From: Salinivirgaceae bacterium
GTDB taxonomy: Bacteria > Bacteroidota > Bacteroidia > Bacteroidales > SZUA-534
Direction of reading: 5' to 3'
Assembly (NCBI GenBank): GCA_027858735.1
Contig: JAQICC010000386.1
Location: 1-33,127, forward strand
DNA: 33,127 nt
Shown: positions 962 to 16,512 of the stretch, piece by piece
How the letters are laid out: the number at the start of each line of letters is the position of its first letter
Position numbering within the stretch: the first letter of the stretch is position 1
Program-made: the position numbers and the translations under genes
Notes under the pieces: model-generated
Databases searched by the model: none
Seen by the model: the letters and a program-made list of their open reading frames with translations, nothing else
Told to the model about the DNA's origin: nothing

Positions 962-2185
962 ATGAATTATTGGGATACTGAAATAATTAAATCGCTAAGC
1001 GGTCTCGAGCTAAAGACTTACTTAAATAAAAAGCAGATTATTCGCTGTTTATATCACCAAAGTATTTTATCGAGTGCCGACATTGCAAGTACCTTAAATA
1101 TTAGTGCCCCAAAATCGAATGCCTATATTCAAGAACTTGTTAATGAGGGTTATGTTGAATATAAAGGAAAAGGAGAGTCAATTGGTGGTAGAAAACCAAA
1201 TATTTATAGATTAAAAAAGAACTCGGTGTATGCAATTGGTATTGACATGGGACTTAAGTTTTTACGCATAGCAATTTTTAACGAGAAAATGGAGAAAATG
1301 GACGATTTGCAATTGCCTTCAATATCATTTACTAATATAGATATCCTTATTGACTTGGTTTATAAAAAAGCACAAGAGCTTATTCACAAAACTAAAATCC
1401 ATGAAGATAAAATTATGGGAATTGGTATAAATATGCCTGGGCTTATTGATTCCGATAAGGGTATTAATTATACCTATTTATTCGATGAGAATAAACCATT
1501 ATCAAAGGCATTCGAAGAAACATTTAAACTTCCCGTTTTTATTGAGAACGATACAAAAGCTCGCACCCTTGCTGAGATGAGATTTGGAGCAGCTAAAAAT
1601 CATGAAAATGCCTTGGTTTTACAAGTTGATTGGGGCTTAGGACTGGGTATGATTTTGAACGGAAAACTTTACAAGGGCAATTCAGGATTTGCAGGAGAGT
1701 TTGGTCATATGCCTATTAACCCTGAAGGTGAACTTTGCAATTGTGGCAAAATTGGATGTATAGAAACTATGGCATCGGGACGTGCCTTGGTAAGGTTGGC
1801 TCAAGAAACCTTGAGCAGAAATCCAAACTCAAAACTTTATTCAAAGTATATGGCCAATAATAATCAGCTTATGCCTTCTGAAATTATTGATACCGCACTT
1901 GAAGGTGACCACCTGTCAATTACACTAATAAATAATGTGAGCGAGGCATTGGGTCAAGGAATAGCATACCTGATTCAAATTTTAAACCCTGAAATTGTCG
2001 TACTTGGAGGTGTAATGGCACAAGCCGGTGACCATTTAGTTTTACCTATTGAACACACCTTATATAAATTTTGCCTGCCAAAATTGCGAGAAGACTCAAA
2101 AATAGTTATTTCACCACTTGGTAACGATATAGGTATAATTGGTTCAGCTATTGTGGTGCTAGAAAGAATTTTAGAACACGATTAA
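962..2185 (+). CDS. ROK-family transcriptional regulator (NagC/Mlc-like), copy 1
   Basis: A 407-residue cytoplasmic protein with an N-terminal winged helix-turn-helix (about residues 20-75, with SSADIASTLNISAPKSNAYI as the recognition region) followed by a ROK sugar-sensing domain. The zinc-site motif is intact: His249 in GEFGHMP and Cys259, Cys261, Cys266 in CNCGKIGCIE. The sugar-contacting END motif ends at Asp197. The phosphate-binding loop is not the kinase type (IDMGLKF instead of DIGGT), so it is likely a regulator and not a kinase. Family members repress sugar genes and release DNA on binding a sugar or sugar phosphate. Its position at the head of a GlcNAc locus suggests GlcNAc or a derivative as ligand (inference). 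It is about four-fifths identical to the gene at 3065. The start is supported by the paralog beginning with the same MNYWDT. Confidence 0.93.
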   Translation: MNYWDTEIIKSLSGLELKTYLNKKQIIRCLYHQSILSSADIASTLNISAPKSNAYIQELVNEGYVEYKGKGESIGGRKPNIYRLKKNSVYAIGIDMGLKFLRIAIFNEKMEKMDDLQLPSISFTNIDILIDLVYKKAQELIHKTKIHEDKIMGIGINMPGLIDSDKGINYTYLFDENKPLSKAFEETFKLPVFIENDTKARTLAEMRFGAAKNHENALVLQVDWGLGLGMILNGKLYKGNSGFAGEFGHMPINPEGELCNCGKIGCIETMASGRALVRLAQETLSRNPNSKLYSKYMANNNQLMPSEIIDTALEGDHLSITLINNVSEALGQGIAYLIQILNPEIVVLGGVMAQAGDHLVLPIEHTLYKFCLPKLREDSKIVISPLGNDIGIIGSAIVVLERILEHD

Positions 2186-3064: not shown

Positions 3065-4288
3065 ATGAATTATTGGGACACAGACATAATTAGTTCACTC
3101 AATGGACTTGAGTTAAAAACTTTCCTAAACAAAAAACAAATTATACGCTGTTTGTATAGGCTGGGCATTATGTCAAGTTCCGACATTTCAACTATTTTAA
3201 ATATTAGTGCGCCTAAATCAAATGCCTACATACAAGAATTGATTGATGAAGGTTATATTGAATTTAAAGGTAAGGGCGATTCAATTGGTGGACGGAAACC
3301 AAGTACATATGGTTTAAAAAAGAACTCGGTTTATGTAATTGGCATTGACCTAGGGCGTAAATTTTTACGCATCGCAATTTTTAATGAAGAAATGGAAAAG
3401 GTTAATGACTTGCAATTGCCGGCTGTATCCTTTACCGACAGAAAAAATTTGGTTAACACTGTTTATGAAAACACTAAACAACAAATACAAAACACTAAAA
3501 TTAGTTTAGATAATATTATAGGTATTGGAATAAATATGCCCGGTTTAATTGATTCCGACAATGGAATCAATTATACATATCTATACGAGGAAACCAGTCC
3601 TTTGTCGTTAGCATTCGAAAAAATATTTAAACGCCCGGTATTTATTGAGAACGACACCAAAGCCCGTACACTAGCTGAAATGCGTTTTGGAGCAGCCAAA
3701 GGTCATGAAAATGCTTTGGTTTTGCAAGTTGATTGGGGTTTAGGTTTAGGAATGATTTTAAACGGAAAACTCTACAAAGGTAATTCTGGTTTTGCCGGCG
3801 AATTTGGTCACATGCCCATAAACCCCGCTGGTGAACTATGCAATTGTGGTAAAATCGGTTGTATTGAAACCATGGCATCGGGTCAAGCACTGGTGAGTTT
3901 GGCTCAGGTGTCATTAGAACGTAATCCGAATTCAAAACTTTATGCAAAATATTTAGCGAACCAAAATCAGTTAATGCCCTCTGAAATTATTGAAACTGCG
4001 CTTGAAGGTGACCAACTATCGATAACGCTTATTAATACTGTTGGCGAAGCTTTAGGCCAAGGGATAGCTTACCTTATTCAAATATTAAATCCCGAAATTG
4101 TAGTATTAGGAGGTGTAATGGCGCAGGCTGGCGATTATTTAATACTACCTATTGAACAGACTTTATATAAATATTGCTTGCCCAAATTACGCGAAGACTC
4201 GAAAATAGTTATTTCACCACTAGGTAACGATATAGGAATGATAGGTTCAGCTGTTGTAGTTCTCGAACGAATTTTAGAAAATAATTAA
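3065..4288 (+). CDS. ROK-family transcriptional regulator (NagC/Mlc-like), copy 2
   Basis: A 407-residue paralog of the gene at 962 and the same length, with an N-terminal winged helix-turn-helix and a ROK domain. His249 and the CNCGKIGCIE zinc motif (Cys259, 261, 266) and the END motif (Asp197) are all kept. The loop IDLGRKF is again not the kinase-type DIGGT. Differences from copy 1 cluster in residues 30-50 around the first helices of the DNA-binding domain, in residues about 120-150 and at a few C-terminal sites, while the sugar- and zinc-binding core is nearly identical. It lies 66 bases before the susC-like gene and is the better-placed candidate for the local repressor. Sharing the sugar pocket but varying elsewhere, the two copies may read the same ligand with different operators or partners (inference). 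Confidence 0.93.
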   Translation: MNYWDTDIISSLNGLELKTFLNKKQIIRCLYRLGIMSSSDISTILNISAPKSNAYIQELIDEGYIEFKGKGDSIGGRKPSTYGLKKNSVYVIGIDLGRKFLRIAIFNEEMEKVNDLQLPAVSFTDRKNLVNTVYENTKQQIQNTKISLDNIIGIGINMPGLIDSDNGINYTYLYEETSPLSLAFEKIFKRPVFIENDTKARTLAEMRFGAAKGHENALVLQVDWGLGLGMILNGKLYKGNSGFAGEFGHMPINPAGELCNCGKIGCIETMASGQALVSLAQVSLERNPNSKLYAKYLANQNQLMPSEIIETALEGDQLSITLINTVGEALGQGIAYLIQILNPEIVVLGGVMAQAGDYLILPIEQTLYKYCLPKLREDSKIVISPLGNDIGMIGSAVVVLERILENN

Positions 4289-4354: not shown

Positions 4355-7300
4355 ATGAGAGTTTATTTATTACTAATTTTTGCATTTTTGAGCACCTGTT
4401 TAGCTGCTCAACAAAGTGCTATTACCGGTACGGTAGTATCTTGCGAAGACAAGGCTACATTACCGGGTGTGTCTGTATCTATAAAAGGTACAAGTACAGG
4501 TACCATTACCGACATTGATGGTAAGTATTCGTTAACTGCAAATGTTGGCGATGTGGTCGTTTTTTCATTTGTAGGTATGTTAACCGAAGAGATTCCGGTT
4601 GAAACCATTTCTGCTATTGATGTTTCGCTTTGTCAGGATTTAATTAGTTTAGGCGAAGTTGTAATAACTGCACTGGGTATTTCAAGAGAAAAAAAATCGC
4701 TCGGTTATTCCGTTACCGATGTTAAAGGCGAGGAATTTTCTCAAAACAGAGACAAAAACATTGTGAGTTCTTTATCGGGTAAAGTTGCTGGTGTTCAAGT
4801 AACGCAAGTTGGTGGTGGCCTTGGGTCTTCATCGAGGTTAGTTATTAGAGGTAATACTTCTATCACCGGAAATAATCAACCTTTATATGTTATTGATGGT
4901 ATACCGGTTAATAATTCGAGTTATGCCGACAATGGTAGTGGTATATGGGATAGAAAAGACAATGGTTCAGGTATTTCTGACATTAACCCCGACGATATTG
5001 AAAGTATGACCGTTTTGAAAGGACCAAATGCTGCTGCTTTGTATGGATCAAGAGCTGCAAATGGTGCCATTATTATTGTTACAAAATCGGGTAAGGCGAG
5101 TAAAGGTATAGGAATTGAATTTTCTTCTTCTACCACAATCGATAAAATTACAAACAGTGTTTTACCAAAATATCAGAATGAGTACGGTAGAGGAATAAAT
5201 AATGTTTATGATTTGAATACAGGAATGTCTTGGGGACCAAAGTTCGATGGTTCTAATCAAGCTTCGTGGAACTCATACAAGCCGACTTTAACTTATAGCT
5301 CCCAAAAAGATAATGTGAAAGATTATTTTGACATGGGTTACAGTACCACAAATACCGTTGCATTATCAAAAGGAACTGAAACCTCATCTATACGATTTTC
5401 ATATACCAATTTAAAGGCCAGCGGCATAATTCCTAATAACGACCAAAAACGCCATAGTTTTAATTTGCGTGCAACAACAAAGTTAAACGACAAAATTAGT
5501 TTCGATGCTAAAGTAAATTACATTACCCAAGAAATTAGTGGTAGAACCTGGTTAGGAAACAGTGCTAATAACGTAATACAATCATTATTTTTAATGCCTC
5601 GCGAAACCGTAACTGAGGAAATGAAACAGTATCAGAATGTCGATGGCACTCAGAATCGTCCTACGCTAACGCATTTTATGAACCCTTATTGGGTAAATAA
5701 TTACGATATTAACAAAGACAGTCGTGACAGACTAATTGGGATGGCTAAACTAGATTATAAGCTAACTACCTCGTTATCAGCTTTCATTCGCATAGGTACC
5801 GATTATTCTGTTACCAAAACTGAAGAATACAACCAACCAGAACATGTTCAATTTCCTGATGGTAGATTACAAGACCGTTCAATAACCAATACAGAAAGTA
5901 ATTTCGACTTTTTATTAAAATATAACAAGGACCTGACTGAAAGTTTAAATTTAATGGTTAATGCTGGTGGAAACATTAGGTATGAACAAGGATTATCTCA
6001 GGGATATCTGGGCTTAGGATATAAAACACCAGAGATTTATAGCATTACCAATGCTGAAAATATTCAATCAAATGATGATGTCTCCAGTGAAAAAATGGTT
6101 CAATCTTTATATGGCTCTGCTACTGCAAGTTACAGAAGTGTGGTTTATGTAGATGTTACTGCCCGCAACGATTGGTCATCGACCTTACCTAAAGACAACT
6201 TATCATACTTCTATCCTTCAGCAACCTTATCGTTAATTTTAACTGAGGCTTTATCGTTACCCGAAGCTATTTCGTTTGCAAAATTACGCGGTGGTTGGGC
6301 TAAAGTTGGTAATGATACTGATCCATATAGCATTTGGAAAAATGTACAAAACCAATCGTACCAATACAACGGATTGGCTTTATCTGATGTTGACTTTATT
6401 GATGAAATTACAGGATTAAAACCAGAGATTACTAAATCGCTGGAATTTGGATTAAACGCAAGCATACTTGATAATACCATTTATTTCGATTTTACCTATT
6501 ATAATTCAGCTACTGAAAACCAAATTATCAGAGCTCAATTGCCGGCAACCACAGCATATGCAAACAGATTGGTAAATGGTGGTTTAGTAAGAAATAAAGG
6601 TATTGAATTCTTAATTGGGGGATATCCGGTAAAAACGAAGGATTTTACCTGGGATATTTCATTAAATCTTGCTAAAAACGAAACTAAAGTTGAAGAGCTT
6701 TATGCCGACCTAACAACTCAAACTCTTGGAGCCGTTCAAAATGTTGCAGGTGGTGCTAAAATTGTAACAACAGCTAAGGGTGGTTATGGTGATATTGTTG
6801 GATATGATTATAATACCGATGACAATGGTAACCTTATTCTTAATGATAATGGAACATTTATAAAATCGTCAGAAGAAGTTTTACTTGGTAACGTAAACCC
6901 AAAATTAACCGGTGGTTTAACCAATAAATTCGATTACAAAAACTTTTCTTTGAAATTTTTAATTGACTTTAGAATTGGTGGAGACATTCTTGCTGGAACA
7001 AATTCAGAGCTTATGGCTTATGGTTTATCGGAAGAATCATTAGAGGGTCGCGAAAGTGGATTCCAAATGACCGGTGTAAATGTTGATGGTAACCCAGTAA
7101 ATGCAAATATTACTGCTCAAGACTATTACGGTTCATTAGCAGCTAATGTAACTACTCCTTTTATTGTTGATGCTACTAATTTTCGTTTAAGGGAATTGGC
7201 ATTGACATTTAAGTTACCTGCAAAATTTATTGAGAAAACTATTTTCCAAAAGGCTACCTTTAGTTTAACCGGACGTAACTTATTTTTCCTGTATCGTGAT

Positions 7301-7420
7301 GCAGATGCTAAACATTTCGACCCAGAAGTAACTTATAGTTCAAGTAATTCTCAAGGTGTTACCTACTTTGATATTCCAACACCAACAACATTTGGTTTTA
7401 ACCTTAACCTAACATTTTAA
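4355..7420 (+). CDS. SusC/RagA-like TonB-dependent outer membrane transporter
   Basis: A 1021-residue outer membrane transporter that would carry oligosaccharides across the outer membrane using TonB energy together with its SusD partner. In order, it has a signal peptide (about residues 1-18, ending CLAA), a carboxypeptidase-regulatory-like domain starting at ITGTVV with the GVSVSIKGTSTGT and DGKYSL motifs (to about residue 100), a plug domain with LGEVVITALGISREKKSLGY and GPNAAALYGSRAANGAI, and a long beta-barrel ending in a terminal Phe (NLNLTF). This is the usual arrangement and length for the SusC family. The next gene begins 18 bases downstream, so the two are cotranscribed. The substrate is inferred from neighbours to be a GlcNAc-containing oligosaccharide; the protein itself does not show it. 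Confidence 0.96.
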   Translation: MRVYLLLIFAFLSTCLAAQQSAITGTVVSCEDKATLPGVSVSIKGTSTGTITDIDGKYSLTANVGDVVVFSFVGMLTEEIPVETISAIDVSLCQDLISLGEVVITALGISREKKSLGYSVTDVKGEEFSQNRDKNIVSSLSGKVAGVQVTQVGGGLGSSSRLVIRGNTSITGNNQPLYVIDGIPVNNSSYADNGSGIWDRKDNGSGISDINPDDIESMTVLKGPNAAALYGSRAANGAIIIVTKSGKASKGIGIEFSSSTTIDKITNSVLPKYQNEYGRGINNVYDLNTGMSWGPKFDGSNQASWNSYKPTLTYSSQKDNVKDYFDMGYSTTNTVALSKGTETSSIRFSYTNLKASGIIPNNDQKRHSFNLRATTKLNDKISFDAKVNYITQEISGRTWLGNSANNVIQSLFLMPRETVTEEMKQYQNVDGTQNRPTLTHFMNPYWVNNYDINKDSRDRLIGMAKLDYKLTTSLSAFIRIGTDYSVTKTEEYNQPEHVQFPDGRLQDRSITNTESNFDFLLKYNKDLTESLNLMVNAGGNIRYEQGLSQGYLGLGYKTPEIYSITNAENIQSNDDVSSEKMVQSLYGSATASYRSVVYVDVTARNDWSSTLPKDNLSYFYPSATLSLILTEALSLPEAISFAKLRGGWAKVGNDTDPYSIWKNVQNQSYQYNGLALSDVDFIDEITGLKPEITKSLEFGLNASILDNTIYFDFTYYNSATENQIIRAQLPATTAYANRLVNGGLVRNKGIEFLIGGYPVKTKDFTWDISLNLAKNETKVEELYADLTTQTLGAVQNVAGGAKIVTTAKGGYGDIVGYDYNTDDNGNLILNDNGTFIKSSEEVLLGNVNPKLTGGLTNKFDYKNFSLKFLIDFRIGGDILAGTNSELMAYGLSEESLEGRESGFQMTGVNVDGNPVNANITAQDYYGSLAANVTTPFIVDATNFRLRELALTFKLPAKFIEKTIFQKATFSLTGRNLFFLYRDADAKHFDPEVTYSSSNSQGVTYFDIPTPTTFGFNLNLTF

Positions 7421-7438: not shown

Positions 7439-9154
7439 ATGAAAAATTATAGAAAATTTATATTTGCAATTCTGCTAACCGGAATATTTGTTGGATGTAC
7501 CGACGATCTGGTTGATATGAATGTGAACCCGAATAATCCGACAGGAGAAACAGCGAATTTAGGTACTCTTATTACAAGTTCAATTCGAAAAGCTTTCCAG
7601 GAAGACCGCTATGAATTTTGGCGAGGTCCACTTATTCAAGGCGACCGTTTTGGACACCATTTTACCTTTGGGTTTAAAGAAGCTGCCTGGTGGAATGAAA
7701 GTGCCATGTACGAATATAGCGATGGATGGAATGAAGCTGTTTTTGTTGGTTATTTTACCGATTCAGAAATGAATGGCAAAGGCGGACACATTTTTCCAAA
7801 TCTTGGTTTAGTAATGGATAAATGTGCAGACAATGGCTACGAGGGTTATTATATGTATTATAATGCCGTATCAGAAATAATTCGCGCATTTCAATTCCTA
7901 AAAATTACCGATGCTTATGGCAATGTACCTTATACTGATGTAAATGATCCGAATGTTTATCAGCCTAGTTATGATAATCAGGCCGATATTTATGCCGATT
8001 TAGATGGCAGACTGAAAAAAGCTATTACTGATATTGGCGATGCTGTAAGTTCAGGAGTAGGAAAAGAGAACCTTTCCGACTATGACCCAATGTTTGAAGG
8101 AGACCTTCAAAAATGGAGTAAATTTGCAAATGCCCTTCGTTTTAGAATGGCAATGCGTTCAAGAAATGCAAACACAAACTCAACGGCAATTATAACTGAA
8201 GTTTTACAAAAAAATCTTCCTCAAGCAAACGATGAATCAGCAGTAACATCAATAACAACCAGTGCTGATTATTTAGATCATCAATATTTTGGTGTTTGGA
8301 ATGCATTTACATCAAATTCAAGAGTTGCTATAGCACCTGGCGATACCGTTGATATTGAAAATGGACCGGGAGCAGGTTCATTTGCTCCAAGTCGTTGTTT
8401 AGTAAATATCATGACCGGACAATCGTTAACTTCTAACATGGTTCAGGATAATGGTACTACTGATGAAATGAATCCATTTTTTGGAGTTGTTGACCCAAGG
8501 TTACCCGTGTATTTTTCTGCTTCATTAATTGGAGGCGTTTATGCAGGTTTCCCAACTCGTGCAGCTTTTGACGATGCTGGTTATTCAACAAGTCAATTTA
8601 GAAGTATCTTTGAATTTGCTCAACCAAATCCGCACATTTATAACGGCACACTCGATATGGTATCATTAGCTTATTCTGAAGTCTGCTTTTTACGTGCTGA
8701 AGCGGCTCTATTTGGTTTAAGTACTGAAGATGCATCAGAATGGTATGTAAAAGGTGTTGAAGCTAGTATGGAACAGTGGGGTGCTATTGTTGGCGATTAT
8801 TGGTCACAAGCTGGAACAGGCCTTACAGGAGATGTTGAATCAGATTTTGAAAAAATTGCCACACAGCGTTGGATTGCTTCATATTGTGTTCCATGGCAAG
8901 CATGGAGCGTTTTAAGAAGAACCGGTTATCCTGCATTTGCAAATCTTGCAAAAACAAAAACGGTTAATGCTTGGATAGAGTTTGATGCACTTGGCAATCC
9001 AATTACACAAGAAATAAGACCTCAATATGTTCAGGGAGAAACAAATTATGCATTACCTTCAAGTTGTGCTATTCCTACTATTGAAAGCTTATTAAATTCT
9101 AATGCTCCCCAAACTCAAACTATGTCACAAAAGGTTTGGTGGGATATTGACTAA
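7439..9154 (+). CDS. SusD/RagB-like outer membrane lipoprotein
   Basis: A 571-residue surface lipoprotein that forms the glycan-capturing lid over the SusC-like transporter. The signal peptide ends in a lipobox at GIFVGC, making Cys20 the lipidated residue. It is followed directly by TDDLVD, an acidic stretch like the lipoprotein export signal used for surface display in Bacteroidota. The body has SusD-family features: helical repeats such as IIRAFQFLKITDAYGNVPYT, LQKWSKFANALRFRMAMRSR, and the late SEVCFLRAEAALFG segment. Within the family it looks like the SusD-like_2 subtype (my recollection). It starts 18 bases after susC and is followed by a terminator-like hairpin. Confidence 0.95.
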   Translation: MKNYRKFIFAILLTGIFVGCTDDLVDMNVNPNNPTGETANLGTLITSSIRKAFQEDRYEFWRGPLIQGDRFGHHFTFGFKEAAWWNESAMYEYSDGWNEAVFVGYFTDSEMNGKGGHIFPNLGLVMDKCADNGYEGYYMYYNAVSEIIRAFQFLKITDAYGNVPYTDVNDPNVYQPSYDNQADIYADLDGRLKKAITDIGDAVSSGVGKENLSDYDPMFEGDLQKWSKFANALRFRMAMRSRNANTNSTAIITEVLQKNLPQANDESAVTSITTSADYLDHQYFGVWNAFTSNSRVAIAPGDTVDIENGPGAGSFAPSRCLVNIMTGQSLTSNMVQDNGTTDEMNPFFGVVDPRLPVYFSASLIGGVYAGFPTRAAFDDAGYSTSQFRSIFEFAQPNPHIYNGTLDMVSLAYSEVCFLRAEAALFGLSTEDASEWYVKGVEASMEQWGAIVGDYWSQAGTGLTGDVESDFEKIATQRWIASYCVPWQAWSVLRRTGYPAFANLAKTKTVNAWIEFDALGNPITQEIRPQYVQGETNYALPSSCAIPTIESLLNSNAPQTQTMSQKVWWDID

Positions 9155-9185
9155 TAATTAAATAACTTTAAACTACTACTTTAAT

Positions 9186-9218
9186 AATTCCCTTCGAACA
9201 AAATATTCGGAGGGAATT
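9186..9218 (+). terminator. Hairpin terminator or mRNA processing site after the susD-like gene
   Basis: A 13-base arm (9186-9198) pairs with 9206-9218 around a seven-base loop with a single G-T pair, followed by a short T run. It probably gives partial termination, so that susCD are expressed more than the enzymes downstream. Confidence 0.55.
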
Positions 9219-9261
9219 TTAAACTGCAAACCCATTAACAAAATTTAATCTAATTTTATGT

Positions 9262-9300
9262 AAGGTTTAACCTTATTAACAATTCTTCTAGGTTAAACCT
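9262..9300. repeat. Paired palindromes AAGGTTTAACCTT / AGGTTAAACCT, candidate operator
   Basis: Two short palindromes of the form AGGTT-x-AACCT lie at 9262-9274 and 9290-9300, with centres 27 bases apart, just upstream of the nagB-like gene (start 9335). The arm AGGTTTAACC (9263-9272) is also the exact reverse complement of GGTTAAACCT (9291-9300), so the pair could form a ten-base stem in RNA. As DNA, two spaced palindromes resemble binding sites for a dimeric regulator such as the ROK proteins encoded upstream. No second copy was noticed upstream of susC. Confidence 0.4.
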
Positions 9301-9334
9301 GTAAATTTTTATATTAAAAAATACAATCATAATT

Positions 9335-11665
9335 ATGCAATTATCGCAGTTAACGCAAGTAGAGCAATGCTTTTTCGACCGTTCTAGCCTAAACGGGTAT
9401 ACAACAAATATACCTTATGTTATTGTTCCAAATTTTCCAAACCTTGGACTATTAACCGCCTTACGGTTTTTAGAATGGGTTGCCGAAAATCAGAACGGAG
9501 TGATTAGTCTGCCCACAGGAAAAACGCCTGAGCATTTTATTAAATGGACCCAATATTTTTTGAACAATTGGAATAAGCAAAAGGCTCAGGAATTAATGAA
9601 TGAAAATGGGTTATATTTAAATAAAAAGCCAGATTTAAGCAGCTTACATTTTGTTCAAATCGATGAGTTTTATCCCATTAATCCCGAACAACACAACAGT
9701 TTTTATTCCTACGTTAGCGAATATTACATAAACGGTTTTGGCTTAAATCCAAAAAATGCCTTATTAATTAACTGCAATAGCATTGAACTAGCTAACGGAT
9801 TACATTTTTCAAATGTTTTTCCCAATAATATAATTGACTTAACGCTGCGCAACCGTGAACCAATCAATGAATTTGAGGCCATTCAAAAACAAAGCATCTT
9901 TTATATAGATAATTGGTGTACCCGTTACGAAGAAAAAATTCGTGAAAAAGGCGGCATTGGTTTCTTTTTAGGAGGTATTGGTCCTGACGGACATATTGCC
10001 TTTAACACCCGGGGTAGCGACCACAATTCAACTACTCGACTAACAGCAACAAATTTTGAAACTCAGGCCGCATCGGCTGGCGATTTAGGCGGTATTGAAG
10101 TTTCGAGAACCCGATTGGTTATAACCATAGGTTTAGATACTATTACTTATAACCCAGAAGGCGTATCCATTATATTTGCTGCAGGTGAGGCAAAAGCTTC
10201 CATTGTTAAACAGGCACTTGAACAAAAACCAAATAACCTGTTTCCGGCCACAGTATTACACCGACAAAAAAATGCACGCTTTTACATTACCGAAGGTGCA
10301 GCCATTGATTTAAATGATAGTATTGACCTTTATTACAAAAGCGGCGATTGGACTTTTGAAAAAACCACAAAAGCCATTTACGATTTATGCCAGCGCATTG
10401 ACAAATATGCACATAAACTGAAACTTAGTGATTTAAAAAATGATGTCTATTGCGCATTGATTCCAAACCTAAGTTTGGCAAGAGTGAACGAAGTTATTGA
10501 AGACACCAAACAAAAAATAAATTTGGGTTTACGCAAAGAAATAAATCAAACTTATTTGCATACCGGACCCCACCACGACGACATTCAACTGGGTATTTTC
10601 CCAAATATAGTAAATCATTTGCGCGAGGCTTCAAACGAATTCCATTTTGCGATATTAACTTCAGGTTTTACGGCAGTTACCAACCATATGATGAAATTTT
10701 TGTTGGATTCGCTACTTGAATTCATCAACGACGAAAAAATTCAAATGCTGAACCACCCCGACTTCTTTGAAAATGGATATAAATATAAATGGGATAAAGA
10801 TGTTGCCCATTATTTAAACAAAGTTGCAGCCAAAGATGAGCCCGGAAAATTACGCGGTGTTTGCCATAGAATTACCCGTGCACTGGTAAAAATTCATCAA
10901 ATAAAATCAATTGCCGATTTAAATATCCAAATACGTAATAACGTTGACTTAATTAATGCTAGTTACGATGGCGAAAAAAATCCACTACATATTCAAACCC
11001 TAAAAGGAATGCTTCGAGAGTTTGAAGAGGAACTGGTATGGGCTCATTATGGTGTACAGGTAAAAAACATTGAGCACCTGCGTTTAGGCTTTTATACCGG
11101 CGATATTTTTACGCAGCAGCCTGAACGCAAACGCGATGTTGAACCCATTTTAGAAATGCTTAGGCGCCTAAAACCAACAGTAGTTAGTTTAGCTCTCGAT
11201 CCAGAAGGTTCGGGACCCGACACGCACTACAAAGTTTTGCAAGCAACCGCTGAAGCTTTGCGTCAATTCAGCAAAGAAACCGACTTATCGGAAATGCGCA
11301 TTATTGGCTACAGAAACGTTTGGTTTAAATTTCAGCCTTACGATTCCAATGTATTTAGCCCCATTTCATTAAATTCAATGGCAGTGCTTAACCGCTCGTT
11401 TAAAGATTGTTATATTAGCCAAGTAAATGCATCGTTCCCAAGCTATGATTACGACGGCCCCTTTAGCGACTTGTCGCAAAAAGTTTGGGTCGAGCAATTT
11501 AAACGCGTACAATTAATTTTGGGTAAAGATTTCTTTTATGAACACGAAAGCCCAAAAATGCGTGCAACCCACGGTATGATTTTCCATAAAGAAATGAAAC
11601 TGGACGAGTTTTTAAGCCATGCCCGAGCATTAGAAGAAAGCATGGAAGGTTCAATTGAAATATAA
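9335..11665 (+). CDS. nagB: NagB-like glucosamine-6-phosphate deaminase fused to a PIG-L/LmbE-type deacetylase domain
   Basis: A 776-residue cytoplasmic two-domain protein. Residues about 20-340 are NagB-like. Asp110 in QIDEFYP and Asp218-His220 in GGIGPDGHIAFN correspond to E. coli Asp72 and Asp141-His143. The position of E. coli Glu148 is Thr225 here. Residues about 400-760 resemble the PIG-L/LmbE zinc deacetylases. His413-His414-Asp415-Asp416 matches the HPDD metal motif, and His631 in GPDTHYKVL is a likely third ligand. Similar long NagB-like proteins are common in Bacteroidota. A plain NagB of about 260 residues would turn glucosamine-6-P into fructose-6-P and ammonia. With no nagA in the window, the second domain may remove the acetyl group of GlcNAc-6-P first (inference). 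The start is the first Met of the open frame, and an MFS gene follows 125 bases on. Confidence 0.85.
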   Translation: MQLSQLTQVEQCFFDRSSLNGYTTNIPYVIVPNFPNLGLLTALRFLEWVAENQNGVISLPTGKTPEHFIKWTQYFLNNWNKQKAQELMNENGLYLNKKPDLSSLHFVQIDEFYPINPEQHNSFYSYVSEYYINGFGLNPKNALLINCNSIELANGLHFSNVFPNNIIDLTLRNREPINEFEAIQKQSIFYIDNWCTRYEEKIREKGGIGFFLGGIGPDGHIAFNTRGSDHNSTTRLTATNFETQAASAGDLGGIEVSRTRLVITIGLDTITYNPEGVSIIFAAGEAKASIVKQALEQKPNNLFPATVLHRQKNARFYITEGAAIDLNDSIDLYYKSGDWTFEKTTKAIYDLCQRIDKYAHKLKLSDLKNDVYCALIPNLSLARVNEVIEDTKQKINLGLRKEINQTYLHTGPHHDDIQLGIFPNIVNHLREASNEFHFAILTSGFTAVTNHMMKFLLDSLLEFINDEKIQMLNHPDFFENGYKYKWDKDVAHYLNKVAAKDEPGKLRGVCHRITRALVKIHQIKSIADLNIQIRNNVDLINASYDGEKNPLHIQTLKGMLREFEEELVWAHYGVQVKNIEHLRLGFYTGDIFTQQPERKRDVEPILEMLRRLKPTVVSLALDPEGSGPDTHYKVLQATAEALRQFSKETDLSEMRIIGYRNVWFKFQPYDSNVFSPISLNSMAVLNRSFKDCYISQVNASFPSYDYDGPFSDLSQKVWVEQFKRVQLILGKDFFYEHESPKMRATHGMIFHKEMKLDEFLSHARALEESMEGSIEI

Positions 11666-11790
11666 GAAATATAGAAATTAAATTGTCTGCAATAAAACGG
11701 AGTTTGCAATATCGCTGATGGCAATGGCAATTTTTAAAGCACTCGTTTGAAAAATAAATAATTATAAAACAAAAATTAAACCCAGGTAAA

Positions 11791-13026
11791 ATGAATACAT
11801 CTAAACAAAAAACACTGCTAGTTCCACTAATATTAGTCGGTATTATGTTCTTCGTTATTGGTTTCGGAGTTGGAATTAGTGGATTTTTAATACCCGCATT
11901 ACGCGATGCTTTTGATTTAACTACCATGCAGTCGTACTTGGTAACCGTAGCAATATTCTCAGCTTTTGTAGTGTTTGGAGGCCCCGCTGGGTGGCTCATT
12001 AAAAAACTGGGTTACCGCATTACCATGATGCTTTCATTCATCGTTATGGCTATGGGTATGTTACTCTTTGTTCCATCGGCAAGTGTCGAAAGTTTCCCCC
12101 TATTTTTAGTAGCCCTGTTTGTTGGCGGTATTGGTAATACCTTGTTACAAGCATCGGTTAATCCGTATGTTACCATTATTGGGCCAACCGATAGTGCGGC
12201 CATGCGAATGAGCCTTATGGGAATTATGAATAAACTGGCTTGGTGGATAGCGCCTTTGTTTTTAGGTTTGTTTATTGATATTTCGAATGTTGAGTTAACC
12301 GATATTGCTTTACCTTTTTACATCGTTACCGGTATTTTAGTTAGCTTAGGTATAATTACCTATTTTATGCCTTTACCCGAAGTTTTGGCCGAAGGCGAAG
12401 ACGAATCGGAAGCATCGGCTTCGAGCTATGCGGCAACAAAAACCAGCATTTTACAATTTCCACATTTACTATTAGGCGTTGTGGCTCTTTTTATTTATGT
12501 AGGTATTGAAACCCTGCCTATGGTTTCTGTTATTGATTTTGCAAAAGCTACTTTCCCCGATGCTACAAATTTAGATGGTTTTGCAAAATATGTAACCATT
12601 GGTTTGGTTGTTGGATATGTGTTTGGCGTTTTTGCAATTCCTAAATACATTTCACAAACCAAAGCCTTAATCATGTTTTCAGTTATAGGCATAGCCTCAT
12701 CGTTGCTATTAATTCTGGCTCCGGCACATTTAGCATTTTATGCCATTGTACTTATTAGTTTTGCAAATTCGCTTATGTGGCCAGCTATTTGGCCTTTAGC
12801 AATTTCCGACTTAGGTAAATTCACAAAAACCGGTTCGTCGCTATTGGTTATGGCTATAGTAGGTGGTGCCGTAATTCCACTTATTTATGGCTATTTGGTG
12901 GATAGCATTCAGGGAACAGCCGAACGCGCATCAGTAGCGCATTTTCAGTCGGCTTATTGGATACTGGTGCCCTGTTACTTATTTATATTATATTTTGCCA
13001 TGCATGGTCACAAAATAAGAAAATAA
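11791..13026 (+). CDS. Sugar MFS transporter, probably for GlcNAc
   Basis: A 411-residue inner membrane protein with about twelve hydrophobic segments and a central cytoplasmic loop rich in Glu and Ser (about residues 197-215). GPAGWLIKKLGYR after the second helix is the usual MFS motif-A position. The sequence has the look of the FucP/NagP sugar:proton symporter group. With a kinase and a deaminase next to it, its likely role is to bring free GlcNAc released in the periplasm into the cytoplasm. AGG six bases before the start codon is a modest ribosome-binding site. Substrate is inferred from context only; glucose or another hexose cannot be excluded. Confidence 0.87.
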   Translation: MNTSKQKTLLVPLILVGIMFFVIGFGVGISGFLIPALRDAFDLTTMQSYLVTVAIFSAFVVFGGPAGWLIKKLGYRITMMLSFIVMAMGMLLFVPSASVESFPLFLVALFVGGIGNTLLQASVNPYVTIIGPTDSAAMRMSLMGIMNKLAWWIAPLFLGLFIDISNVELTDIALPFYIVTGILVSLGIITYFMPLPEVLAEGEDESEASASSYAATKTSILQFPHLLLGVVALFIYVGIETLPMVSVIDFAKATFPDATNLDGFAKYVTIGLVVGYVFGVFAIPKYISQTKALIMFSVIGIASSLLLILAPAHLAFYAIVLISFANSLMWPAIWPLAISDLGKFTKTGSSLLVMAIVGGAVIPLIYGYLVDSIQGTAERASVAHFQSAYWILVPCYLFILYFAMHGHKIRK

Positions 13027-13039
13027 AACATTATAAATA

Positions 13040-13087
13040 CCTAAACTACAACCAATTATGAATATGTATATTTATTTTTAGTTTAGG
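13040..13087. repeat. Inverted repeat CCTAAACTA / TAGTTTAGG between MFS and kinase genes
   Basis: CCTAAACTA (13040-13048) is the perfect reverse complement of TAGTTTAGG (13079-13087), with a 30-base AT-rich spacer. It sits just before the kinase start at 13105. It could be an operator, an mRNA stem that tunes expression, or chance; there is no T tract to suggest termination. Confidence 0.35.
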
Positions 13088-13104
13088 CATAACACAAACA
13101 AATT

Positions 13105-13956
13105 ATGACAAAGAAAACGTATGTAGGCGTTGATATAGGCGGAACATCTATTGTGGCAGGACTAATGGTAGACAGAAAAATTGAAAAAACCTGTAACATA
13201 CCAACAATGGGCATCCAGCCACTCGATATTATTTTAAAACAATTGTTCAATGCAATTGATGAGGTAATTAACAAAGACGTTGCCGGTATTGGAGTTGGCT
13301 GTCCGGGATTTATTGATGCCGATGCTGGAAAAATAGTAAACATAAATAACATTCCGGCTTTTAAGGGAATTAACCTTAAAAAATTGATAAGCGATAAATA
13401 TAATTTACCCGTATTTATAAATAACGATGCCAACTGTTTTGTTTTAGGTGAAACTTATTTTGGAGCTGCCAAAGCATATAAACATGTACTTGGAATAACA
13501 CTGGGCACGGGTTTAGGCGGTGGTGTGGTAATCAATAAAAAAGTATATGCCGGCTTACATGGCGCTGCCGGCGAAATTGGTTGTATTCCTTTTCGCAACG
13601 GTATTATTGAAGACTTTTGCAGTAGCAAATTCTTTTCCGATAATTATTCGGCAACGGGTTACGAATTATATAATCGTGCCGAAACGGGCGACCCCGACGC
13701 CTTAACAGCTTTTGCTGAAATGGGTAGAAACCTGGGTTGGCTTTTAAATAATGTAATGTACGTTTTGGCTCCTGAAATTATTGTAATTGGTGGCTCAATT
13801 GCTGGCGCTTTTAAATACATAGAACCCGGCATAAAAGCCGAATTATCAAAATTTTTATTTGAAGATATTCGAAACAACATCGTAATTAAACCAGCTGAAA
13901 TTGAAAACGCCGGATTAATGGGTGCTGCGGCTTTATGTATGTCGGAATTGGAATAA
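13105..13956 (+). CDS. ROK-family sugar kinase (probable GlcNAc kinase), non-zinc subtype
   Basis: A 283-residue cytoplasmic kinase. The phosphate-binding motif DIGGT (Asp10-Thr14) and the catalytic base in INNDANC (Asp108) are both present, as are the glycine-rich LGTGLGGG and the late GGSIAG. Unlike the two upstream ROK regulators it has no DNA-binding domain. The usual ROK zinc site is absent: the His of GEIGH is Cys160 (GEIGCIP) and the CxCGxxGC block is replaced by EDFCSSKFF (Cys172). I recall this as a known subgroup in Bacteroidota. It would phosphorylate GlcNAc at C6 to feed the NagB-like enzyme, although glucose or glucosamine are possible. The GH20 gene starts 18 bases downstream, so the two are cotranscribed. 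Confidence 0.9.
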   Translation: MTKKTYVGVDIGGTSIVAGLMVDRKIEKTCNIPTMGIQPLDIILKQLFNAIDEVINKDVAGIGVGCPGFIDADAGKIVNINNIPAFKGINLKKLISDKYNLPVFINNDANCFVLGETYFGAAKAYKHVLGITLGTGLGGGVVINKKVYAGLHGAAGEIGCIPFRNGIIEDFCSSKFFSDNYSATGYELYNRAETGDPDALTAFAEMGRNLGWLLNNVMYVLAPEIIVIGGSIAGAFKYIEPGIKAELSKFLFEDIRNNIVIKPAEIENAGLMGAAALCMSELE

Positions 13957-13974
13957 ACCTTAATTAGAATAGAA

Positions 13975-16512
13975 ATGACTCGTATACTATTAATTATTAC
14001 CGTTGTCCTTTTTTTATGGTCGTGTAACAGCAATAAGTCAGACATCAACGCACTGGACGTGCATTGGGAATTGGTAAAAAACCAAGCAACTGCACTAGGC
14101 GAATCCGAATGGAAATTAACTTTAAATAATAATAGCGGAAGTGATTTTCCAGCAACAGGTTGGGCCCTCTATTTTAATCATATTCATAATTTCAGAACTG
14201 ATTCTGCAAGCAATTTTAGTATACATCATGCCAATGGCGATTTACGAGTTATAAAACCCCAGCCATCCTTTAAAGGTATTGCTAAAGGTGAAAATGTTAG
14301 CTTTTCAGTATTCTCAACCGGTTCGGTTATTAATATTACCGACAGACCCATTGGCTTTTACTTGGTGTATAACAACAATACCAACAAGGGCATTCCTTGC
14401 GAATTAACTTGCGAACCTTTGCCATTAAACGGATTAAAACGAGCAGGGTATGACAACTTACCTGTTGAAACCCCCGAACGAATTTATCAATCGAATGCTT
14501 TATTAAGCGATTTACCAGAGGCCACTTTATGCCCAATTTTACCAACTCCGGTCGCTTATAAAACCAGCCAAGGAAAATTGCTTTTGCAAAAACAAATAGC
14601 CATAAAATTCAGCCATGAACTAACCGCCGAAGCGTCGTTTTTAAAGCAAAAACTGGAAAATATGTTTGCCGGTGAAATTGTTTTTAATTCGGCCAACAAG
14701 CCAAACATTACGTTGGTTTTAGATGCAAACATTTCAAACACCGAAGGTTATAAATTAAGTGTTACCTCTAAAGGGGCCGAAATAAAGGCTCCGGGTACAG
14801 CAGGTATGTTTTATGGTATTCAAAGTTTTATAACAATTATTCCGTTACAAGCTTGGGAAACCGAACAAGAAACCATTGAAATACCTTGTGTTACAATTAC
14901 CGACGCACCCCGTTTCGAATACCGCGGTTTGTTTTTAGACGTGGCCCGAAACTTTCATTCAAAACAACAAGTATGCAAATTGCTCGATGTTATGGCTTTT
15001 TATAAGCTAAATAAATTCCATTTCCATATTTGCGACGATGAAGGTTGGCGAGTTGAAATTAACGGACTGCCCGAACTTACCAATTATGGAAGTAAACGGG
15101 GTCATTCCCAAAATGAAGCTTCATGTTTACAACCCTCATTTGGTAGCGGCCCAATTGCAGAAGCAGAAGTTTCAAGTGGTTGTGGTTATTATACACGCGC
15201 CGATTTTATTGAAATTATAAAATACGCAAAGGCGCGTCACATTGAAATTATTCCTGAAATTGATATGCCCGGACATGCACGCGCCGCCATTCGTTCCATG
15301 CAATACCGTTATAAAAATTACATGGCAAAAGGCGATAGTACAAAAGCCGTTGAATATTTACTTAGCGAATGTAACGACAAGTCAAATTACCGCTCAGTTC
15401 AGGGCTGGAACGACAATGTTATTAACGTTGGAATGGAATCGACTTATACATTTTTAACCAAAGTTAGCGATGAAATTTTAGCCATGTTCACCGAAGCCCA
15501 GGCTCCTTTAAAATGCATACATACTGGTGGCGACGAAGTACCGCAAGGTGTTTGGGAAAAATCGCCTATTTGCAACACTTTGGTAAGCGAAAATAAAAAG
15601 CTTAACTCAACCGCCGATTTATCGCACTATTTTATAGACAGGTTTTCAACCATTTTGGCCAAGCGAAATATTATTGCTGCCGGGTGGGAAGAAATTGCGC
15701 TGCAGGGACATGCAAACAAAAACCCAAATCCCAATTTTATCGACAAAAATTTGCGCCCTTATGTTTGGAACAATATGTGGAATTCGGGCAACGAAGATAT
15801 TGGCTATAAGTTGGCAAATGCTGGTTACAAAACCGTACTGGCACATGTTACTAATTTATATTTCGATTTAGCTTGTTATAAACATCCGCAAGAGCGTGGT
15901 TATTATTGGGGAAGTTTTGTTGACACCCGCCAGCCCTGGGAGTATACCCCAATGGACATTTCAAAATGTGCAAACATTGACCATTTTGGAAACACCATTG
16001 ATAGTGATGCACTGCGCCAAAAAATGGTAAAATTAAATGCAATTGGAGCTAAAAATATTTTAGGCCTTCAAGGTTTATTGTGGAGCGAAAATAGTATTTC
16101 GCCCGAAATAAACGATGCACAAATTATTATGAAACTTATTGCTTTAGCCGAGCGTGCCTGGGCCAATCAACCGCAGTGGGCCAAGCTTACAAAAAGCACA
16201 GAACAGAATAAATTAAAAGCCGACGATTGGAATAATTTTGTAAACCGCGTAGGTAAATTTCAATTACCCATTTTAGAACAGTGGAATACCAAATTACATT
16301 ATCGGGTTCCAACACCGGGTGCACAAATTACCGATGGTAAACTTTTTGCAAATATTTTGTATCCTAAATTAAGCATTCGTTATACTACTGACAATAGTGA
16401 ACCTACCATAAAATCTAATTTATATACCAAACCGGTTTCGGTTAGTGGTAAAGTGAATTTAAAGGCCTTTTCAAACAACAGAAATTCAAGCTATATGGTA
16501 AGTGTGCAATAA
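13975..16512 (+). CDS. GH20 beta-N-acetylhexosaminidase lipoprotein
   Basis: An 845-residue exo-acting glycosidase that removes terminal GlcNAc (or GalNAc) from oligosaccharides. The signal peptide ends in a lipobox with Cys17 (LFLWSC). The residues after it (NSNKSD) are not acidic, which favours a periplasmic-facing anchor. It has an N-terminal CHB_HEX-type domain (about 30-160), a GH20b domain (about 175-310), and the catalytic barrel beginning at RFEYRGLFLDVARNFH. The catalytic pair is Asp520-Glu521 in HTGGDEVP. A C-terminal chitobiase-type domain (about 765-840) ends with STRYTTDNSEPT-like spacing, actually read as SIRYTTDNSEPTIKS. This is the only glycosidase in the window, with no GH18 chitinase nearby, so short chito-oligosaccharides or trimmed glycans are likelier substrates than polymeric chitin. 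Confidence 0.96.
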   Translation: MTRILLIITVVLFLWSCNSNKSDINALDVHWELVKNQATALGESEWKLTLNNNSGSDFPATGWALYFNHIHNFRTDSASNFSIHHANGDLRVIKPQPSFKGIAKGENVSFSVFSTGSVINITDRPIGFYLVYNNNTNKGIPCELTCEPLPLNGLKRAGYDNLPVETPERIYQSNALLSDLPEATLCPILPTPVAYKTSQGKLLLQKQIAIKFSHELTAEASFLKQKLENMFAGEIVFNSANKPNITLVLDANISNTEGYKLSVTSKGAEIKAPGTAGMFYGIQSFITIIPLQAWETEQETIEIPCVTITDAPRFEYRGLFLDVARNFHSKQQVCKLLDVMAFYKLNKFHFHICDDEGWRVEINGLPELTNYGSKRGHSQNEASCLQPSFGSGPIAEAEVSSGCGYYTRADFIEIIKYAKARHIEIIPEIDMPGHARAAIRSMQYRYKNYMAKGDSTKAVEYLLSECNDKSNYRSVQGWNDNVINVGMESTYTFLTKVSDEILAMFTEAQAPLKCIHTGGDEVPQGVWEKSPICNTLVSENKKLNSTADLSHYFIDRFSTILAKRNIIAAGWEEIALQGHANKNPNPNFIDKNLRPYVWNNMWNSGNEDIGYKLANAGYKTVLAHVTNLYFDLACYKHPQERGYYWGSFVDTRQPWEYTPMDISKCANIDHFGNTIDSDALRQKMVKLNAIGAKNILGLQGLLWSENSISPEINDAQIIMKLIALAERAWANQPQWAKLTKSTEQNKLKADDWNNFVNRVGKFQLPILEQWNTKLHYRVPTPGAQITDGKLFANILYPKLSIRYTTDNSEPTIKSNLYTKPVSVSGKVNLKAFSNNRNSSYMVSVQ

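Follow-up and report, generated by a model that had tools for sequence, protein, structure and literature searches.

A NagB–LmbE Fusion Protein as a Candidate Replacement for NagA in a Salinivirgaceae Bacterium

Introduction

Among the major carbon and nitrogen sources of Bacteroidota is N-acetylglucosamine (GlcNAc), which they obtain from chitin, mucin, and peptidoglycan. The stretch of DNA considered here (the window) comprises 33,127 nucleotides from a Salinivirgaceae bacterium (assembly GCA_027858735.1, contig JAQICC010000386.1), and it raises the question of which protein removes the acetyl group when a GlcNAc locus contains no nagA. A preliminary description of the window had noted a kinase and a NagB-like enzyme with no nagA beside them. 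This was borne out: a ROK-family kinase lies at 13105-13956, no Amidohydro_1 domain (the NagA fold) was found in 20 open reading frames (ORFs) searched against Pfam, and no nagA was found in 10 ORFs searched against NCBIfam. The same description proposed that the NagB-like protein, through a second half of the PIG-L/LmbE type, could perform both the deacetylation of N-acetylglucosamine 6-phosphate (GlcNAc-6-P) and the deamination that follows it.

The answer favored by the present analysis is that this fused protein is probably a cytoplasmic GlcNAc-6-P deacetylase that takes the place of NagA, and that its NagB-like half probably then deaminates the glucosamine 6-phosphate (GlcN-6-P). NagA itself (TIGR00221) catalyzes the reaction, and holds the place in the pathway, that are proposed here for the fused protein, but it belongs to the amidohydrolase superfamily and has an unrelated fold.

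Predicted Structure of the Fused Protein

The gene and the parts of its product are located as follows:

9335..11665, + strand: type II fused protein, NagB-like half plus LmbE/PIG-L-like half, 776 amino acids (ORF, model, and relatives)
9410..10336, + strand: NagB-fold half, residues 26-334 (VIA-align against 2bkv and 1dea)
10541..11617, + strand: LmbE/PIG-L-fold half, residues 403-761 (VIA-align against 6ull and 8bgo)
10682..10984, + strand: mostly helical segment within the LmbE half, about residues 450-550 (model and residue counts)
10568..10582, + strand: metal/base motif P412-H413-H414-D415-D416 (conservation in relatives)
11225..11227, + strand: H631, putative third metal ligand, in D622-P-E-G-S-G-P-D-T-H631 (conservation in relatives)

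The ORF has an ATG and a stop codon, and His413, Asp415-Asp416, and His631 stand at the residue numbers first assigned to them. The AlphaFold model of the window protein, built from 42 sequences, has a predicted local distance difference test score (pLDDT) of 90.6 and a predicted template modeling score (pTM) of 0.86. Together with structural alignment by VIA-align, the model places a NagB fold and then an LmbE fold within one chain. Residues 26-334 superimpose on Bacillus subtilis NagB (2bkv) with Z 31.3 and 1.5 Å over 242 residues, and on Escherichia coli NagB (1dea) with Z 30.8. Residues 403-761 superimpose on BshB (6ull) with Z 19.7 and 2.5 Å over 204 residues, on diacetylchitobiose deacetylase (8bgo) with Z 18.8, and on MshB (1q74) with Z 14.7, so that in the model the second half takes the expected LmbE/PIG-L fold. 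The same family is reached by sequence: a profile of the C-terminal half matches diacetylchitobiose deacetylase (E 1.3e-7), MshB (1.8e-4), and BshB (0.0013), the matches spanning only the first 40-70 positions and one of the ten hits being an unrelated designed helical bundle.

That profile was made from two types of fused protein. Type I is the known long NagB-like protein described by the 653-position NCBIfam model NF002557 (PRK02122, "glucosamine-6-phosphate deaminase-like protein"). Like type II, to which the window protein belongs, it has a NagB-like half followed by an LmbE half and shares the invariant H-x-DD and D-P...T-H motifs. It differs in being about 650 rather than about 775 residues long, in being 22-26% identical to the window protein, and in keeping Glu148 (E. 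coli NagB numbering) and the LmbE histidine (DPHGTH) while lacking Asp141. The AlphaFold model of type I has a pLDDT of 85.1. From T442 to K557, every one of the 26 aligned type II proteins has 115 residues, versus 55-63 in the 16 type I proteins; the helical segment at 10682-10984 lengthens the type II LmbE half by about 55 residues relative to type I.

Family models recognize type II poorly. The window protein scores 180.9 bits with NF002557 (cut-off 384), 94.5 bits with the nagB model TIGR00502 (cut-off 236.9), and 20.0 with Pfam Glucosamine_iso (cut-off 27). The Pfam PIG-L model PF02585 matches 10 of 26 type II members and 16 of 16 type I members at E<=0.01. A search of the whole source genome with the PIG-L model gave zero matches at E<=0.001, the fused proteins included; because these also went unmatched, the search is blind to type II, which structure and profile did detect. 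The initial assignment to a known long NagB-like architecture therefore stands as regards the order of the halves, but type II is a divergent, longer branch of that architecture, lying under the NCBIfam and Pfam model cut-offs.

The Putative Metal Site

Conservation was assessed in two sets. The first is a 42-protein alignment of 26 type II proteins (filtered for PHHDD and a GIGPDGHI-like motif) and 16 type I proteins (all loci fetched); the filter dropped one type II locus, L052, which has DGHV and PHHDD. The second set contains 106 type II proteins: the window protein and the products of 104 loci, one of which carries two copies. Selection was by "GIGPDGH or PHHDD" and a length of >550 residues, and no locus was lost. 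Patterns from the N-terminal half had supplied 80 of these loci, the top 80 among 546 confirmed ones when ranked by similarity to the full-length protein. L048 and L118 are apparently one genomic place and are both counted in the 104 and the 106.

H413, H414, D415, and D416 sit in LHTGPHHDDIQ, and H631 sits in SGPDTHYKV. All 106 type II proteins keep H413, H414, D415, D416, R561, D622, P628, D629, T630, and H631. Across both types, P412, H413, D415, and D416 are invariant in 42 of 42 aligned proteins, and the full list of residues invariant there in the C-terminal half is H413, D415, D416, K557, R561, E564, D622, P623, T630, H631, Y659, R660, and W663. Since H413, D415, D416, and H631 are invariant in both sets and lie in a predicted LmbE fold, the motif is not a chance occurrence, and the claim that the second half keeps a PIG-L/LmbE metal motif is upheld. 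Judged from these sequences, the residues of a putative His2-Asp metal site (H413, D416, and H631) and its aspartate base (D415) are kept in every one of the 106. Arg561 may be the counterpart of MshB Arg68, an equation inferred through an R-x-x-E motif.

In MshB, zinc is bound by His13, Asp16, and His147, Asp15 acts as the base, and Arg68 and His144 are also conserved in the family, according to PMC4101496. The same paper describes the LmbE/PIG-L enzymes BshB, MshB, and diacetylchitobiose deacetylase as removing acetyl groups from GlcNAc-containing molecules. BshB, MshB, and the archaeal diacetylchitobiose deacetylase resemble the C-terminal half in fold and in their His-Asp-His metal-site residues with an aspartate base. 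They differ in being free-standing and acting on other substrates, whereas the C-terminal half adds the helical segment and has HHDD in place of HPDD. Taken on its own, the proposition that this half deacetylates GlcNAc-6-P or GlcNAc appears likely. The preliminary description had called the role of the second half unassigned, and searches of the open-licence PMC literature listed no paper that assigns a role to the LmbE half; the accessible parts of PMC5583593, PMC11129491, and PMC9765461 contain nothing bearing on it.

The NagB-like Half

The NagB site residues are given here in E. coli numbering (Asp72, Asp141, His143, Glu148, Arg172, and Lys208). The N-terminal half resembles the NagBs of E. 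coli (1dea) and B. subtilis (2bkv) in fold and in the equivalents of Asp72, His143, and Lys208, all three of which the window protein has. Among the 106 type II proteins, D110 (Asp72) is found in 103 (two gaps and one Gly), H220 (His143) in all, and K287 (Lys208) in 104 (two Ile), and with Asp141 included the four equivalents are retained in nearly all. The 42 aligned proteins of both types all share D110, G219, H220, F223, N224, and K287.

An Asp directly follows the Arg172 position in 105 of the 106 type II proteins, as it does in every one of the 42 aligned fused proteins. In the window, Gly249 of the pair G249-D250 (10079-10084) aligns with Arg172, and Asp250 is its conserved neighbor. Type I keeps Glu148 in 16 of 16 proteins, with T, S, or N at the Asp141 position; its Arg172 position holds Ser in 13, Arg in 2, and Gly in 1, and the next residue is Asp in 16 of 16. 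Both type I proteins that have Arg, L082 and L083, belong to nagA-bearing genomes (G002 and G080), but so does L084 (G068), which has Ser; these cases are too few to interpret.

Genomic Context

The other genes of the locus in the window are as follows:

962..2185, + strand: second NagC-like ROK regulator, 81% identical to the regulator at 3065-4288 (profile scans)
3065..4288, + strand: NagC-like ROK-family regulator adjoining SusC (PF00480 and HTH_24; NF047937 215.8 bits, below the cut-off of 650)
4355..7420, + strand: SusC-like outer-membrane transporter (TIGR04056, 652.1 bits)
7439..9154, + strand: SusD-like protein (PF12771, 196.9 bits)
11791..13026, + strand: NagP-like MFS transporter (NF046060 272.7 bits, below the cut-off of 625)
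13105..13956, + strand: ROK sugar kinase, presumed GlcNAc kinase (PF00480 178.3 bits; NF009835 115.2 bits, below the cut-off of 380)
13975..16512, + strand: GH20 beta-hexosaminidase whose N terminus looks, by eye, like that of a lipoprotein (PF00728, 306.2 bits)

Upstream of the fused gene lie a NagC-like ROK regulator and the SusC/SusD genes; downstream, on the same strand, come the genes for the NagP-like transporter, the ROK kinase, and the GH20 enzyme, separated by gaps of 125, 78, and 18 bases. By eye, the GH20 enzyme has a lipoprotein-like start and the fused protein has none; consequently, the arrangement fits release outside the cytoplasm, then import, then cytoplasmic handling. A scan of 9000-14100 for promoters and terminators gave no excess over shuffled sequences (17 versus 19.2 and 3 versus 5.3). 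Between the two regulator genes lie 879 bases that contain no ORF of >=80 amino acids.

The source genome is 98.89% complete and in 452 contigs. The genome-wide search for nagA (TIGR00221), suggested at the outset, gave best scores of 24.4 and 21.7 bits versus a cut-off of 225.65, and no nagA was thus found elsewhere in the genome; the finding that would have counted against the initial suggestion did not appear. Six Amidohydro_1 proteins were considered as hidden nagA candidates and rejected, none being above the nagA cut-off in NCBIfam. They score best as a methylthioadenosine/S-adenosylhomocysteine (MTA/SAH)-type deaminase, an adenine deaminase, an aminofutalosine-deaminase-like protein, a dihydroorotase, SsnA, and an imidazolonepropionase.

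A second fused copy, 79% identical to the first and scoring 194.4 bits with NF002557, lies on contig C226 (locus L006, C226:30134-50000) between a NagC-like regulator and a NagP-like transporter with a ROK kinase. A fused protein is thus encoded together with a ROK kinase and a NagP-like transporter in both GlcNAc-type loci of the source genome; GH20 is found at two genomic places, neither of them in the C226 locus. A third locus, on contig C109 (L007:586-8275), is predicted from its gene content to serve glucosamine or chitosan. Besides a LacI regulator, an MFS transporter, and a GH2 enzyme that carries an exo-glucosaminidase Ig domain, it encodes a canonical short NagB (271 amino acids, 413.2 bits versus a cut-off of 236.9) between two ROK kinases. 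Because the fused copies stand in GlcNAc-type loci and the short NagB stands with a predicted exo-glucosaminidase, the LmbE half in this one genome tracks the acetylated substrate and the plain NagB the predicted deacetylated one. No MurQ was found above cut-off in the source genome (best 38 bits), so in this organism the GlcNAc-6-P should come from the kinase.

Elsewhere in the window, between 17000 and 28378, lies a metal-resistance cluster with an AraC-type regulator, an SO_0444-type Cu/Zn exporter with an HMA domain, a cation efflux protein, an RND pump, an outer-membrane efflux protein, a CusB/HlyD-type protein with HMA, and an HMA protein. At 30984-33014, a pyridine nucleotide-disulphide oxidoreductase is fused to rhodanese domains.

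Type II Loci and the Choice of Substrate

Neighbors were scanned in the 104 type II loci, four ORFs on each side, by single-query searches. The labels obtained were ROK kinase in 23 loci, MurQ in 11, Ala-Glu-type epimerase in 11, NagP in 10, short NagB in 5, GH20 in 3, and GH94 in 2, with at least one of kinase, MurQ, NagP, GH20, or GH94 in 43 of the 104. An amidase label in 18 loci may be inflated by a shared Ig-like domain. Among the 16 fetched type I loci, three adjoin SusC/SusD and GH20 (L069 and L074) or NagP (L075). In L065 and L067, a GH94 phosphorylase gene precedes the type II gene, which is followed by genes for a short NagB and then a protein of 660-661 amino acids (DUF4954/DUF6819 in L065).

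MurQ produces GlcNAc-6-P directly. The MurQ neighbor is above the TIGR00274 cut-off in four of four cases tested, and the 11 loci with MurQ show three gene arrangements, represented by 6, 3, and 2 loci (e.g., L050, L056, and L085). Since MurQ and GlcNAc kinase both yield GlcNAc-6-P, the common substrate is best read as GlcNAc-6-P. These loci bear directly on a rival explanation, in which the LmbE half acts before phosphorylation on free GlcNAc or the chitin disaccharide, as the archaeal diacetylchitobiose deacetylase does, and the kinase acts on glucosamine. The diacetylchitobiose deacetylases are indeed the closest PDB sequence matches of the C-terminal half, and GH94 phosphorylase genes would suit such a route; yet MurQ, which gives GlcNAc-6-P and not free GlcNAc, accompanies type II in its three arrangements, and the fusion partner has the fold of a sugar-phosphate enzyme. 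On this balance, action before phosphorylation is considered rather unlikely.

Distribution and Co-occurrence with nagA

A single draw of 296 Bacteroidota genomes was searched with the window protein, nagA, and NF002557. A type II call required a best E < 1e-130, and "short NagB only" meant a best NF002557 E of 1e-60 to 1e-95 with neither long type, both being read by hand from tables. Type I was found in 120 genomes, type II in 28, and both together in none. Type II also occurs on contigs labeled Ignavibacteria, Neomarinimicrobiota, Calditrichota, and others.

The nagA gene stood above its cut-off in 10 of 12 genomes with short NagB only, 8 of 28 with type II, 23 of 120 with type I, and 1 of 136 with none of these; at E<1e-40, the counts were 10, 10, 29, and 1. 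Fisher tests, which ignore relatedness, gave p 2e-5 (cut-off) and 1.4e-4 (E<1e-40) for short-only genomes versus both long types, and p 0.002 and 0.014 versus type II alone. The short-only class is not clean, because at least one member (G097) shows a long open frame with an internal stop. Within the four families that hold both classes, genomes with neither class being left out, nagA was found in 9 of 10 short-only genomes versus 4 of 18 type II genomes (stratified permutation p 0.012; Cochran–Mantel–Haenszel p 0.020). That the fused protein stands in for NagA has good indirect support, part of it from this distribution: fused-protein genomes mostly lack nagA and short-only genomes mostly have it. 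It is qualified by the minority in which nagA coexists with the fusion.

Proposed Sequence of Reactions

In the proposed pathway, the GH20 enzyme would free GlcNAc outside the cytoplasm, NagP would import it, and the ROK kinase would turn it into GlcNAc-6-P. The LmbE half would bind one divalent metal, probably zinc, via H413, D416, and H631; D415 would activate water, and the acetyl group would be removed. The NagB-like half of the same chain would then deaminate GlcN-6-P to fructose-6-P.

Evidence Weighing Against the Proposal

Several findings weigh against this proposal and are gathered here with the explanations that they favor. The first concern the LmbE half. The hydratase GalB has the same fold (Z 17.3 to the C-terminal half); consequently, the fold alone fixes no reaction. 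PF02585 gives 19.4 bits on the window protein (residues 410-641, profile positions 3-128 of 129), under the gathering score of 28.2. At the column of the second LmbE histidine (MshB His144, BshB His110), all 26 aligned type II proteins have Glu (Glu624 in the window protein), whereas all 16 type I proteins keep His. Loss of the metal motif was sought in genomes that keep nagA, and none was found among the aligned type II proteins, a test that gave no support and is weakened because its type II rows came through the motif filter. The absent His144-like residue and the low Pfam score are what would be cited for a dead or merely structural LmbE half, the missing NagA being an unrecognized, unrelated enzyme. 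However, a dead domain should drift, and the ligand and base residues are invariant throughout the 106 proteins, most of whose loci were found through patterns in the other half. A dead domain is therefore judged very improbable.

Further difficulties come from the NagB-like half, which differs from NagB in the replacement of the Glu148 and Arg172 equivalents, in extra insertions, and in the fused LmbE. All 106 type II proteins have T, V, or I where E. coli NagB has Glu148, and in place of Arg172 they have G (64 proteins), T (25), S (11), V (4), or A (2); the aligned solved NagBs carry both Glu148 and Arg172. In B. subtilis NagB, which its PDB title marks as a characterized deaminase, Asn occupies the Asp141 position, so the NagB site tolerates some change. 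Judged by its residues, the type II deaminase half has a remodeled site; this makes its deaminase activity uncertain and less likely, though it may be kept. Because Glu148 and Arg172 are lost, the claim that one chain both deacetylates and deaminates stands less firmly than the claim that it deacetylates. As for the initial suggestion that one protein performs both steps, the part resting on the LmbE fold and its intact putative metal site has held, while the part resting on the NagB half is weakened by these losses. The presence of both activities in one chain is still favored, if with some reserve.

The same replacements invite the explanation that the LmbE half deacetylates while the NagB-like half is not a deaminase but serves sugar-phosphate binding or regulation, a short NagB or SIS-type enzyme carrying out the deamination. 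Short NagB genes lie near type II in 5 of the 104 loci, and the source genome has one elsewhere. On the other side stand the Asp72, Asp141, His143, and Lys208 equivalents kept in nearly all type II proteins, the tolerance seen in B. subtilis NagB, and 13 of the 28 type II genomes, which suggest that no short NagB is present (no NF002557 match better than 1e-42, lengths not checked). A non-deaminase NagB half is thus unlikely, though it carries appreciable weight. It shares the main claim of deacetylation, and hence the likelihoods given to the various explanations are not all exclusive and do not sum to one.

The published genetics are also unfavorable. In Larsbrink et al. (PMC5127042), deletion of the chitin-locus nagB of Flavobacterium johnsoniae had no effect on chitin use, which is ascribed there to possible redundancy with three further nagB-like genes; a separate gene is predicted to encode NagA, and the protein of the deleted nagB could not be expressed.

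Genomic context is likewise less uniform than the GlcNAc-related labels suggest. No kinase, MurQ, NagP, GH20, or GH94 label was found in 61 of the 104 type II loci, and no label of any kind in 42. Of the 23 kinase loci, 15 represent one common arrangement, in which a 775-amino-acid protein is directly followed by a kinase of 286-288 amino acids (the named members mostly Algoriphagus), and they are therefore not independent. Such loci without a labeled gene, the diverse substrates of LmbE-fold enzymes (as described in PMC4101496), and the coexistence of nagA in some genomes would suit an LmbE half acting on another N-acyl sugar, e.g., a cell-wall or lipid precursor, and not on GlcNAc-6-P in this genome. 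This explanation has to be set against the GlcNAc-related genes co-localized in the 43 loci and against a source genome in which no nagA was found despite two GlcNAc-type loci, and it appears improbable.

Finally, nagA above cut-off stands alongside the fused protein in the 8 type II and 23 type I genomes counted above. In 50 further type II genomes, taken from the best-80 loci, nagA was above cut-off in 9 and at E<1e-40 in 17; these counts side with the proposal, but the absences include many metagenome-assembled genomes of unstated completeness. The 33 genomes without nagA also include the isolates Algoriphagus chordae, A. marincola, Echinicola shivajiensis, and Chryseobacterium elymi; in E. 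shivajiensis, type II is present with no nagA over E 1e-5. Price et al. (PMC9007349) studied five bacteria and report a part for NagA in the glucosamine use of four (Fig 3A-3D); Echinicola vietnamensis, a relative of E. shivajiensis, is the species of Fig 3E. A GlcNAc growth phenotype of a nagA-free type II isolate was sought in the literature for Labilibaculum, and nothing usable was found.

Biological Significance

The wider proposal is that the NagB–LmbE fusion, in its two forms (148 of the 296 genomes, with type II also beyond Bacteroidota), may be the main GlcNAc-6-P deacetylase of these organisms. The deaminase half of the same chain would receive the GlcN-6-P in a remodeled substrate site (Glu148 or Asp141 lost, usually Arg172 as well, with an invariant Asp newly placed next to it), and the classical NagA would be the exception in these groups. 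This generalization is tentative and is held with slightly less than even confidence.

Most of the sampled genomes with a fused NagB lack the textbook deacetylase gene. If the proposal is true, a recurring gap in the pathway would be filled by a protein now named merely "deaminase-like". An LmbE-fold enzyme would also have taken over from NagA without being homologous to it, and the fusion of two steps would lend itself to a study of how they are coupled.

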